Below are positions 24,683 to 28,693 of a stretch of 64,000 bases of DNA, in pieces. This DNA is from Natrinema thermotolerans DSM 11552 (GTDB taxonomy: Archaea; Halobacteriota; Halobacteria; Halobacteriales; Natrialbaceae), in NCBI GenBank assembly GCA_000337115.1, contig AOIR01000048.1, forward strand, positions 137,781 through 201,780. Direction: 5' to 3'. Position 1 is the first letter of the stretch, and each line of letters starts with the position of its first letter. The translations under genes and the position numbers were made by a program. Under the pieces are notes generated by a model, which had not been told where the DNA came from, made no database searches, and saw only the letters and a program-made list of their open reading frames with translations.

Positions 24683-26245
24683 TTACGCGCCGACCCAGGT
24701 GTTCGTCGAGGCGACCGACGTGAGCTGGACGTTCTCGTTCTCCTGCATGCTGATCTGTGAACTCCCGGCGCTGCCGCCGTCTTCGGCGACTGCGATGGAG
24801 CTGTGCTGTTCGTTCAGGTTCTGCTGCGTGATGATCTGTTGCTGGGCGATCGCGGCGCTTGCCTCCTGCTCGACGTCGTTCGTCTGCGTGGCGTTCCCGG
24901 CGTAGTCGTACGACGTGCCGGGGGCCATGCCCGCGTTCCCGTCGACCGTGACGGTCATACTCGAGGTCCGAGTGACGTCGTCGGAGACGTAGCCCGGGCT
25001 CGCGTAGACGTTGAGCGCGTCGGCATAGGCGACCTGTGCGTTGTAGTTCTGCTGGTAGGCGAGCTGGATCGCGGTGGCCTCACTGCCGTTCTCCGCGAGT
25101 GCCATCGCGGTGTTCTGGAAGTTGATGTTCTGTTGTTCGACTGCCTGTTCTTGGGCAATACCCGCGGTAGCGGTCTGTTCGGTGTCGTCGACGCCATCTA
25201 CCTTGTCCTTCTTGTCGGGCTTGTGTGCGTCAGTCGTGGTCGAGAGGACGTCGCCGTCGACATTGCCGGCGGTGGCGACGTTCATCCCGAGGGACGAGAC
25301 CATCAGGTTCGAGGCGGTTGCGCTACCGAACTGCTCGTTGAGGTTGCTCTGGTCGGTGAACTGAATCGCCGTGGCAGTGCTGTTTTCGCCGATCGCGATG
25401 GCAACCGCACCGCCCTGTTCGTTGACGTTCTGCTGGGCGACGTCTTGTGACTGATTGACGAGTGCTTCGGCACTCTGGCCGACACCGGGACCGTCGTCGC
25501 CGGATTTGTCCTTCGCGTGTCCGAACTCGCCGTCACCGAGGTAGACGTTCGAGGCGTTGGCCATGCCCTCCTGGAGGTTCTCGTTGCGCTGGTAGGACTG
25601 CTGGAGCGCGGTCGCCTCGCTGTCGTTCATCGCGTACGCGAACGCGGTACTCTGGTTGTTGTAGTTGACCTGACCGACCGTCTGGGACTGGGTCACGCCG
25701 GCGATGGCTTCCTGGGTGACCGTCTCGTCGTCGCCCTTCTCGTCTTTGATGCCCCAGCCGTCGAACTGCTGGTCGCCGCCGTTACCGATGATGATGTTGA
25801 CCTCGCCGACGTTTTCGAACTGCGTCTGTGCGGTTCGAACCTCGACGTTGCCGGCCGTTGCCTCACCGGTCTGGACGTTGTCGTTCTGCTGGTTGGCCTC
25901 CTGGACGGCCGTCGCCTGGCCGCCGTCGATCGAGACCGACACCGCCGATCCCTGTTCGTTGATGTTGACTTGATCGACGTCTTGGTGCTGGATGACTTCG
26001 GCGGCCGAGCTGCTCGTCCCGTCCGCGTGTTGCTCGACGTACTCCTCGAGGGACATGTCGCCGAGGTCAGCGCCGAAGACCAGATACAGCTCTTCGCCGT
26101 CCTCGAGCGTGTGTATCGTGTCACTATTCGCTGCGGCGTCCCCGCCTGCGGTAGCCGCCGGGACGGCCGCTACCATCGACAGGGCCACCATACAGGCCAT
26201 AAGAAAAGTCGTAGTTCGTGATCGTCTCGTCGTGTCGGTTGTCAT
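24683..26245 (-). CDS. Secreted Gln/Asn-repeat protein, curlin-like (fibre candidate)
   Basis: 520-residue exported protein with a signal peptide (hydrophobic core MACMVALSMVAAVPAATAG, cleavage near residue 33). Five imperfect repeats of about 55-60 residues lie at roughly 81-134, 178-236, 257-316, 357-415 and 460-518. Each reads A-x-A-x-(I/V)-x-Q-x-Q-x-V-x-Q-x-N-x-N-x-Q, a stretch of alternating Ala/Val, then ATA-x-Q and Q-x-N-x-N-x-Q and A-x-N. This alternation of Gln/Asn with small or hydrophobic residues is the pattern of curlin-type beta-solenoid amyloids. There are no Cys residues and no membrane anchor, so the product is probably released or assembled outside the cell. Linkers between repeats are acidic and vary in length. 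Function is inferred from pattern only. Confidence 0.8.
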   Translation of the reverse strand: MTTDTTRRSRTTTFLMACMVALSMVAAVPAATAGGDAAANSDTIHTLEDGEELYLVFGADLGDMSLEEYVEQHADGTSSSAAEVIQHQDVDQVNINEQGSAVSVSIDGGQATAVQEANQQNDNVQTGEATAGNVEVRTAQTQFENVGEVNIIIGNGGDQQFDGWGIKDEKGDDETVTQEAIAGVTQSQTVGQVNYNNQSTAFAYAMNDSEATALQQSYQRNENLQEGMANASNVYLGDGEFGHAKDKSGDDGPGVGQSAEALVNQSQDVAQQNVNEQGGAVAIAIGENSTATAIQFTDQSNLNEQFGSATASNLMVSSLGMNVATAGNVDGDVLSTTTDAHKPDKKDKVDGVDDTEQTATAGIAQEQAVEQQNINFQNTAMALAENGSEATAIQLAYQQNYNAQVAYADALNVYASPGYVSDDVTRTSSMTVTVDGNAGMAPGTSYDYAGNATQTNDVEQEASAAIAQQQIITQQNLNEQHSSIAVAEDGGSAGSSQISMQENENVQLTSVASTNTWVGA

Positions 26246-26697
26246 TGATCGTTTGATTTGAGTCGTGATTGTGGTTTCTTGCTAGGACTGTGCGTCGCAA
26301 ACCCTCCTATCCCGATTACAGACTTTGTTATCTGTATATTTCCGCGCCGAAGAAGGCTGATACCGGATTGAAGGGGAATGCTTACGCGGAATTCCCGGAA
26401 CGCGATCGTCAGAGCAATCGTCGGCGGTCGACCGATACCGAAGACCCGCTGTACCGGATCACAGCCCTCGGAACATCGTCTCTCCGAGATTCCCGTAACG
26501 ATGAGACGGTCACGAGTAATCGAATCGTAACTCGAGTAGCTGTTACGTAGCGGAAAGTCCGGATTAGAGCGGCCGAAATAGCGACATACCGGCCGTATAT
26601 CGATGTTTCTCTATAGAACCGACGGCTATCATCGCGGACTATCCGTTCCGTACGGACCCCGTACGCGCCCGTTGATTTCGAATCGCATGCTTACACC

Positions 26698-26743
26698 GAA
26701 ACGATCGATCAATCCGAGATAGGAACTGAAACGGTACGATCAA
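26698..26743. promoter_or_regulatory. Direct repeats upstream of the secreted-protein promoter
   Basis: Two near-identical 15-16-base units starting with GAAACG and ending in GATCAA, spaced 30 bases (three helical turns) apart, just upstream of the TATA-like box at 26773. A regulator could bind both on the same DNA face. Confidence 0.35.
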
Positions 26744-26772
26744 CCGTTGCTATGGATCGAAACCGTTCCCCC

Positions 26773-26782
26773 CCTTCATATG
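26773..26782 (+). promoter_or_regulatory. Shared promoter box CCTTCATATG, copy 1
   Basis: The same ten bases occur at 27754-27763, in each case about 150 bases before the start codon of one of the two small secreted proteins. TTCATATG is a plausible TATA element. Confidence 0.45.
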
Positions 26783-26803
26783 AATCTCCGATGTGGGCCT
26801 TAG

Positions 26804-26927
26804 TCGGGAGACACGCAGCGAGCGGGTGGCCACAGGCGATGAGCCGATAGCAGCCGGAGCCGACGAGCGGTAGCTATCGGTCGTACGGCGGCCCCGGGCG
26901 CGTTCGTGTCTCCTGGAACGATAGACA
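26804..26927 (+). ncRNA. Structured 5' leader of the small secreted protein gene
   Basis: GGAGACACG at 26807-26815 pairs perfectly with CGTGTCTCC at 26905-26913 and can extend to 12 pairs with wobbles. Inside it, CCGATAGC at 26844-26851 pairs with GCTATCGG at 26873-26880. The outer stem closes 14 bases before the ATG at 26928. A comparable but sequence-different outer stem occurs in the leader of the paralogue at 27920. It is proposed as a cis-acting leader, not a separate transcript. Confidence 0.45.
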
Positions 26928-27421
26928 TGACACGAAACACGATACTGACAGTCGCACTCGTCGCTAGTCTGCTGATGGTCGGTTTCGCTGGAACGGCAGC
27001 GGCAAGCGGCACGGCCGATACGGCAGGCGAGGCGGCCGGCCTCGGTGACGAAGACACCTCGACGGACGACAACCAAGTCGCGGCCGCAGCAGTGGTCCAA
27101 GACCAGACAGTGACGCAGCTTAACGACATCGACCAGAACGCGAGCCAGAACGTCGAGCAGAACGCGACTGGAATCGACATCGGCATCGGAATCGGTGACG
27201 ACGACACTGACTCAGACAATATCCCTGCCCTCGGGGACCAACTCGAGCAGCAAAACGCTAACGACAACAACGACGACGACGGATTCAACCTCGAGATCGG
27301 CACCACTGGCGACCAGACGGTGAACCAGAACATCAGTCAGAACGCTGATGCGTCTAACTCGAACGCGCAGGTCGGCACTGCGACCGCGACCAACTACGAC
27401 TTCGACGACTTCGAGTTCTGA
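26928..27421 (+). CDS. Small secreted Gln/Asn-rich protein A
   Basis: 164-residue exported protein. The signal peptide is MTRNTILTVALVASLLMVGF plus AGTAAA, with cleavage near residue 28. Two Gln/Asn modules follow: VVQDQTVTQLNDIDQNASQN with NATGIDIG, and near the C-terminus DQTVNQNISQNADASNSNAQ. They flank an acidic segment rich in Asp and Asn. The same two modules and the same signal peptide ending (VGFAGTAAA) occur in protein B at 27920, so the two genes are paralogues. It has no membrane anchor or Cys. It may be a minor or nucleating partner of the repeat protein at 24683-26245; that is inference. Confidence 0.75.
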
Positions 27422-27450
27422 TCGGTGCAGCGCTTCCCGATCAGCGACGG

Positions 27451-27459
27451 TTCTTTTTT
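27451..27459 (+). terminator. T-tract after protein A gene
   Basis: TTCTTTTTT follows the stop codon by about 30 bases; oligo-T runs terminate archaeal transcription. Confidence 0.5.
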
Positions 27460-27753
27460 GACTGCAGTACGGACACGATAGCCAACGGTCTCGTCCGGAC
27501 TGAGAAGTGTGAGCCGTCGGGAGCGGATTGTAGCAGTGGCATAGAACTCGATAGTGAGAACCTGATCGCGACAGCAGCGTTCGCAGGGACGGTCCCGAAT
27601 TCATACCGTTTTGTAATGCTGCCGTGCGCACTATGCCAAACTATTGACAGTAATCGGAGGACATGATATAAATGGGTGTGGAATTCTGTAATTTCAGATA
27701 ATATATGGTGCGATTCGATGTAGGATTCGAATAGCATCGCGAACAGTGGTTTG
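27460..27753. other. AT-rich spacer between protein A and protein B genes
   Basis: About 290 bases with AT-rich stretches such as GATATAAATGG and GATAATATATGG at about 27665-27712 that could be further promoter elements. No ORF with coding character is seen on either strand. Confidence 0.45.
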
Positions 27754-27763
27754 CCTTCATATG
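27754..27763 (+). promoter_or_regulatory. Shared promoter box CCTTCATATG, copy 2
   Basis: Identical to 26773-26782 and again followed two or three bases later by CTC. It lies 157 bases before the ATG of protein B. Confidence 0.45.
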
Positions 27764-27784
27764 GGCCTCTGTAGTGCGATTCGA

Positions 27785-27919
27785 CCGGATGGGGTGCCAC
27801 GACAACGCGGGTGGTGACCGAGACGCAGTCGGCACGCGATACAGTGTGCTGCGGCAGTCGATGTCCCATCGGAAGTCCCGCATGTGCGTGCGTACTCATC
27901 CGGACAACCAGCAATACAT
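27785..27919 (+). ncRNA. Structured 5' leader of the protein B gene
   Basis: CCGGATG at 27785-27791 pairs with CATCCGG at 27897-27903, closing a loop of about 105 nt, and ends 16 bases before the ATG. A local hairpin CGATG-TCC-CATCG lies inside. The layout mirrors the leader at 26804-26927 although the paired sequences differ. Confidence 0.4.
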
Positions 27920-28693
27920 ATGAAACGGACACTCACGGTACTGATGACCCTCGCCCTCATCGGGAGCATGGCCTTCGTCGGCTTCGCCGGAACGGCAGCT
28001 GCCGGCGGCAACCACCACGATGACGGCGACAGCAGCGACGACCGAACGTCGGCCGCGAGCGTGACTCAGTCCCAGAGCGTATCGCAGACGAACGTGATCG
28101 AACAGAACGCCAGCCAGTACGCCGATCAGGACGCAACCGGGGTCGACATTGATGAAATCCTGAACGGAGACGGTGATGACGGCGATGATAACGCTGACAA
28201 CGGAGGCAATGACGATGGCAGTGCCGCCCAAGCCGGTATCCAAACCGTCACATTCCAGAAATTCAATGGTCAGACCGAGTCGTACTATTGGAATGGTACT
28301 GGGTTTGACACAGAGAATAACAATCCCAGGTACACTCTCACCGCTCAGGACGAGTTTGATGACGATGGAAATCCGCTAGCAGCTGACTGGACCTACGATA
28401 ACCAGGGTCAGGGTCAGTCACCAGTATCCGCGACCGTGACCAATGCTGATGGGACGACGTGTACGGTCGATGTCGCGGGTCAGTCTTCTGGCCAAATCGA
28501 GGCATGCGATACGACCGACGACAACGGTGACAACGGTGACAACGGTGACGGCACCGACGGCATCGAAGGCTCCACCGGGAACCAGACCGTCAACCAGATA
28601 GTCGATCAAGACGCTGACGCGTCGAACTCGAACGCGCAGAACGCCGACGCGTCCGCCTCGGCCGGCGACATTCTCTCGGTCCTCCTCGGCTGA
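27920..28693 (+). CDS. Small secreted Gln/Asn-rich protein B
   Basis: 257-residue exported protein. The signal peptide starts MKRTLTVLMTLALIG and ends VGFAGTAAA. An N-terminal module SVSQTNVIEQNASQYADQD with DATGVDID and a C-terminal module NQTVNQIVDQDADASNSNAQ match those of protein A. Between them is an extra domain of about 100 residues (TVTFQKFNGQTESYYWNGTG through CTVDVAGQSSGQIEAC) with two Cys that could pair; its DNA is visibly less GC-rich than its surroundings, so it may have been acquired. Asp/Asn/Gly linkers flank it. The start is the ATG at 27920. Confidence 0.75.
   Translation: MKRTLTVLMTLALIGSMAFVGFAGTAAAGGNHHDDGDSSDDRTSAASVTQSQSVSQTNVIEQNASQYADQDATGVDIDEILNGDGDDGDDNADNGGNDDGSAAQAGIQTVTFQKFNGQTESYYWNGTGFDTENNNPRYTLTAQDEFDDDGNPLAADWTYDNQGQGQSPVSATVTNADGTTCTVDVAGQSSGQIEACDTTDDNGDNGDNGDGTDGIEGSTGNQTVNQIVDQDADASNSNAQNADASASAGDILSVLLG

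Follow-up and report, generated by a model that had tools for sequence, protein, structure and literature searches.

The three secreted proteins encoded between positions 24683 and 28693 of the window (the whole 64,000-nucleotide stretch of Natrinema thermotolerans DSM 11552 analysed here) may build a stacked Gln/Asn-ladder extracellular fibre or matrix system of the Natrialbaceae, in which two small proteins serve as one-repeat partner subunits of a large one. We infer polymerisation, heterotypic assembly and a role in the biofilm or matrix, and regard this proposal as evenly poised. In its full form, as a new, non-homologous haloarchaeal functional amyloid consisting of a five-repeat ladder protein and fast-evolving one-repeat partners (in a-b or permuted b-a order), with an old or transferred Firmicutes relative made without a signal peptide, it is put forward tentatively.

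Results

Organisation of the locus

As the earlier note had described, three exported proteins without anchors are encoded at one place, one on the minus and two on the plus strand. A Sec-like signal peptide was recognised by eye at the N-terminus of all three, and no anchor, Pfam domain or NCBIfam family was matched in any of them; the PGF-CTERM signal, a feature of ArtA-type surface proteins, is absent from the large protein of the window. The features of the locus are as follows.

24683..26245, minus strand: gene of the large secreted protein (520 aa); signal peptide, then an N-terminal YLVFGAD...SLEEY segment, then five Gln/Asn-ladder repeats of ~60 aa on acidic variable linkers
25838..26017, minus strand: repeat R1 of the large protein, aa 77-136
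25538..25717, minus strand: repeat R2, aa 177-236
25298..25480, minus strand: repeat R3, aa 256-316
25001..25180, minus strand: repeat R4, aa 356-415
24692..24871, minus strand: repeat R5, aa 459-518
26296..26332, minus strand: conserved block upstream of the large gene, GATAACAAAGTC..., in part kept across genera
26775..26795, plus strand: upstream element of partner 1, TTCATATGAATCTCCGATGTG, ~150 nt 5' of the ATG
26927..27421, plus strand: small secreted partner 1 (164 aa); one repeat, its halves split by an acidic insert
27086..27136, plus strand: half-unit a of partner 1, AAVVQDQTVTQLNDIDQ
27323..27394, plus strand: half-unit b of partner 1, NQNISQNADASNSNAQVGTATATN
27756..27776, plus strand: upstream element of partner 2, TTCATATGGGCCTCTGTAGTG, the same element as at partner 1
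27920..28693, plus strand: small secreted partner 2 (257 aa); two halves with an insert of ~160 aa containing two Cys between them
28055..28105, plus strand: half-unit a of partner 2, ASVTQSQSVSQTNVIEQ
28592..28663, plus strand: half-unit b of partner 2, NQIVDQDADASNSNAQNADASASA

The start of partner 2 at 27920 is the likely ATG; the listed open reading frame begins earlier, at a GTG. Its insert (28106-28591) is partly common to other Natrinema.

The immediate neighbours of the locus encode RadB, CBS-domain, LarC and CDC48 proteins. No csgG/E/F-type secretion gene is found among them (the earlier note likewise saw no CsgG-like pore), and no FapA/D/E/F gene was seen among the annotated neighbours. 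No dedicated assembly or secretion gene was seen nearby, the neighbours shared between genomes resembling housekeeping genes, and Rfam gave no match in the 22-31 kb part of the window.

The spacer between the divergent genes measures ~620-700 bp and contains two parts kept across genera, the block close to the large gene and the element, which precedes the small gene by ~150 nt. The TTCATATG element is present ahead of each small gene in the window; a search pattern derived from these two sites themselves gave only these two matches in the 3.9-Mb genome at up to 2 mismatches. Related elements, again with a long stretch (~150 nt) to the ATG, precede small genes in other genera. A scan for sigma-70 promoters and terminators, a method ill-suited to archaea, stayed at chance level.

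Repeat architecture and conservation of the large protein

A profile search found exactly five repeats of ~60 residues in the genome, all of them in the 520-aa protein. Each is formed by two copies of Q-x3-Q-x-N-x-N-x-Q, with the half-units 27-28 residues apart, and the protein contains 10 QxNxNxQ motifs versus 0.02 in shuffled sequence. Gln and Asn account for 27% of the repeats and for only 8% of the linkers, which are 22% acidic. The alternation of Gln/Asn previously noticed in all three proteins stands for the large one, in which 38 Gln/Asn pairs at i,i+2 are present versus 17.2 expected (z=6.2). For the two small proteins of the window, however, the bare i,i+2 test is non-significant (z about 1.0 and 0.5) and the pattern is real only against the repeat profile; profile and reversed-sequence controls were therefore used for them, as described below.

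Across 40 homologues, with identities down to 30%, Q88, Q115, Q119, N121, N123 and Q125 are among the invariant columns, as are their counterparts in the other repeats. All invariant residues, which are these Gln/Asn together with Ala, lie on a single face of the alternating pattern. Conservation of at least 95% is reached by 49 of the 95 Gln/Asn columns versus 34 of the 425 others (Fisher p=1e-20). Entropy strictly alternates along the repeat, conserved positions falling at even offsets from -8 to +12 and, after a phase shift at +13/+14, at odd offsets 15-19 and 23-47, while the opposite face is free to vary. Such a strict alternation marks beta-strands that bury one face, here composed of Gln, Asn and Ala. 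Furthermore, in a tree of the repeats R1-R5 mostly cluster by position across Natrialbaceae, Haladaptataceae and Halalkalicoccaceae (modest support, 60 columns), suggesting that the five-repeat order is old or ancestral.

Structure models

AF2 models computed with 40 sequences show all-beta repeat cores with pLDDT up to 96 and disordered linkers (pTM 0.56). A model of the R2+R3 pair gave the same strand pattern twice, with a pTM of 0.41 and most residues at pLDDT <70. Foldseek returned no significant match in the PDB (best E 0.06, TM 0.12); the insignificant list consists mostly of beta-solenoids, with FapC first and listed twice, followed by SufB/D and ice-binding solenoids. We thus consider, with moderate confidence and on the basis of these models, that the repeats are predicted to be all-beta and solenoid-like. 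On the question of a beta-solenoid, raised by the earlier note, the models are beta-rich and lean to solenoids, and no structure match is significant. Among the outcomes which that note had named as contrary to its reading, neither a confident globular fold nor a known enzyme or adhesin family was found, and the co-occurrence of the genes is kept. Matches of the family profiles to PDB sequences were of chance quality and FapC was not returned. In a viral structure library the top matches were giant-virus lipid membrane proteins (best E 5e-4, TM 0.25), which were rejected because of poor superposition (rmsd 12-24).

The Q-N-N-Q motif is palindromic and is compatible with a parallel solenoid and with an antiparallel hairpin. 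In the latter case the repeats would be long antiparallel beta-hairpins, that is, polar-zipper sheets building a sheet or coat nearer to the archaeal sheath amyloid than to a solenoid. DSSP analysis of the models gives two long strands with a short strand and a tight turn (DGG/NGS) between them, and Q-N-N-Q would pair symmetrically in a hairpin. Antiparallel sheets are also known from the SH sheath proteins, whose core in the sheath hoops is made of two six-stranded antiparallel sheets (PMC10593813, PMC11576556). However, the half-units lie in register 27-28 residues apart, the Foldseek matches are mostly solenoids and no homology to PDB entries is detected; we regard the hairpin as a distinctly improbable arrangement, and the solenoid-like stack is retained below.

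The small partner proteins

Among 76 loci with enough flank, at least one small Gln/Asn protein with a signal peptide lies upstream and divergent of the large gene in 52, the other three classes of orientation counting 4, 2 and 1; the genes thus do occur together in other genomes, as the earlier note had asked. Many of the small proteins match the repeat profile directly, down to E about 1e-16. By hhalign, the small-protein family P0002 aligns to the repeat profile with 93% probability (E=2.5e-7), the gap falling at the acidic insert, and across 125 genomes 29 of the 31 matches to the P0002 profile lie no more than about 4 kb from the large gene. Both repeat halves are present in 76/91 small proteins versus 0/91 shuffled ones, a generous control since the small open reading frames were picked for QxN content; the stricter reversed-sequence control gives 49% versus 1.5%. 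The view of the small genes as paralogous partners is therefore upheld, by the same repeat halves and by their conserved divergent position.

Of the small proteins (L031-L122), 40 have the half-units in the order a-b and 36 in the order b-a, apparently through circular permutation within one family. If the solenoid unit were shifted, the b-a order could be accommodated. The small proteins diverge fast, and their length and copy number vary. Secreted peptides of no relation to the repeat, such as halocin-like ones or decoys, would also show these features if they evolved fast and lay nearby by chance. Such an origin is already disfavoured, and in our judgement very improbable, given the profile homology to the repeat, the two half-units, which are found together more often than in shuffled or reversed sequences, and the conserved divergent position.

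Distribution and forms of the family

The large gene is present in 99 of the 125 Natrialbaceae genomes and in 26 of 29 genera. Across a sample of the class it is found in 88/394 genomes, nearly all from the family of the host; the remaining few come from three other families, and a fourth gave weak matches. Named hosts include Natrinema, Natronorubrum, Natrialba, Halobiforma, Haladaptatus, Halalkalicoccus and Halocatena. Public records label the homologues as hypothetical or PGF-CTERM proteins, and the large-protein family has no Pfam or NCBIfam name. Certain copies of the large gene are plasmid-borne; in Natronorubrum bangense (L074, L075) the gene occurs on the chromosome and on a plasmid, with matching length and scores and with small partners beside each copy.

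The large protein exists in three forms. It is free in the window, some homologues are anchored by PGF-CTERM, and others combine a Tat-like signal with a charged tail. PGF-CTERM scores above cut-off (TIGR04126) in the homologues L047, L051, L053 and L105, and the Tat-like form was assigned from sequence and sub-threshold matches. Paralogues of the large protein with Tat-like signals and Lys/Asp-rich tails (L054, L056, L057, L107-L109, L111, L115 and L117) mostly occur without small partner genes.

The anchored homologues count in favour of our proposal and also bear on its main rival, in which the large protein is a mono- or oligomeric beta-solenoid of the surface or matrix (an adhesin or S-layer-associated protein) that never polymerises, its ends being bound or capped by the small proteins. 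Anchoring by PGF-CTERM in several homologues is expected of cell-wall proteins, solenoid adhesins and ice-binding proteins are among the Foldseek matches, none of which is significant, and the fixed order of five repeats suggests a defined particle. Nevertheless, members of the window type carry no anchor, and a Gln/Asn ladder together with partners that share the repeat is, by analogy, a hallmark of the end-to-end stackers FapC/FapB and CsgA/CsgB. We consider a non-polymerising protein unlikely, though a serious contender.

Discussion

We propose that the signal peptide would export the large protein, whose five imperfect repeats may form the rungs of a beta-solenoid (cross-beta) stack with in-register Gln/Asn and Ala ladders filling the core, and whose acidic linkers would loop outward and provide solubility in high salt. 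Much as in FapC, an amyloid-like fibre or matrix could then grow outside the cell, either by end-to-end stacking of subunits or by one subunit templating the next. The products of the divergent genes, each carrying one repeat's worth of ladder split by a variable insert, may enter the stack as minor subunits, acting as nucleator, cap or side-decoration; the large protein would be the putative major subunit, as in the earlier note. Four results count against this proposal: no solved fibre is significantly matched in structure, the model of the repeat pair scores low, no assembly or secretion gene is seen close to the locus, and the Tat-type paralogues mostly occur without small partners.

The system is like FapC or curli in design and is not curli by the features tested. 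It shares with CsgA/CsgB the alternating Gln/Asn ladder repeats, secretion and the logic of major and minor paralogues, whereas curli are characterised by the QxGxxN motif, PF07012 and CsgEFG-type genes nearby. The curlin comparison made in the earlier note has to be changed. The motif differs, QxGxxN occurring once in the large protein versus 0.39 expected, which is near chance (CsgA has 5); PF07012 has no match in the genome itself even at E<=1 and none over cut-off in relatives; and homology to CsgA/CsgB received an hhalign probability of 0.1.

FapC consists of three imperfect repeats with flexible linkers and a conserved Asn/Gln network (PMC12392863). With FapC/FapB of Pseudomonas the window system has in common few long imperfect repeats, variable flexible linkers and a conserved Asn/Gln network (PMC12392863, PMC12822426), as well as a paralogous minor subunit with the same repeat; FapC is also the top, insignificant, Foldseek match. 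The two differ in that the window protein has five ~60-aa repeats with QxxxQxNxNxQ twice in each, and FapC three of ~38 aa; furthermore, the window partners are a single split repeat and the host is an archaeon without an outer membrane. The architecture, with few long imperfect repeats and variable linkers, is best read as closer to FapC than to curli and as probably non-homologous to FapC. The SH/MspA sheath amyloid of Methanospirillum and Methanothrix is likewise a secreted archaeal amyloid-like beta protein; the portions of its description available to us contain no Gln/Asn-ladder repeat, and by that description it is set apart (PMC10593813, PMC11576556).

Biofilms of Haloferax bind Congo red and ThT, and the protein responsible has not been established (PMC4180959); our literature search found no paper that joins haloarchaea with functional amyloid. 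The family is a good, testable candidate for a haloarchaeal biofilm amyloid, with dye binding seen in Haloferax and the hosts named here belonging to other genera, and it offers a concrete, widespread gene set for deletion and purification. If our proposal is right, the solution of a Gln/Asn-ladder fibre would have arisen again without an outer membrane and in molar salt, with a link to a bacterial relative.

Such relatives were found in Firmicutes, in one MAG of Thermincola and one of Clostridiaceae. Both contain three genes in tandem that share the Gln/Asn-ladder repeat of the large protein (E to 1e-34), at L121:8028-10340 and L122:7956-10224, with no evident signal peptide. They are rare, being present in 3/391 genomes in the class of the Clostridiaceae MAG and in 1/10 in that of the Thermincola MAG. 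The tandem genes of Thermincola adjoin genes for a YheC/D ATP-grasp protein and a PGA_cap protein, neighbours that hint at a spore or cell-surface role.
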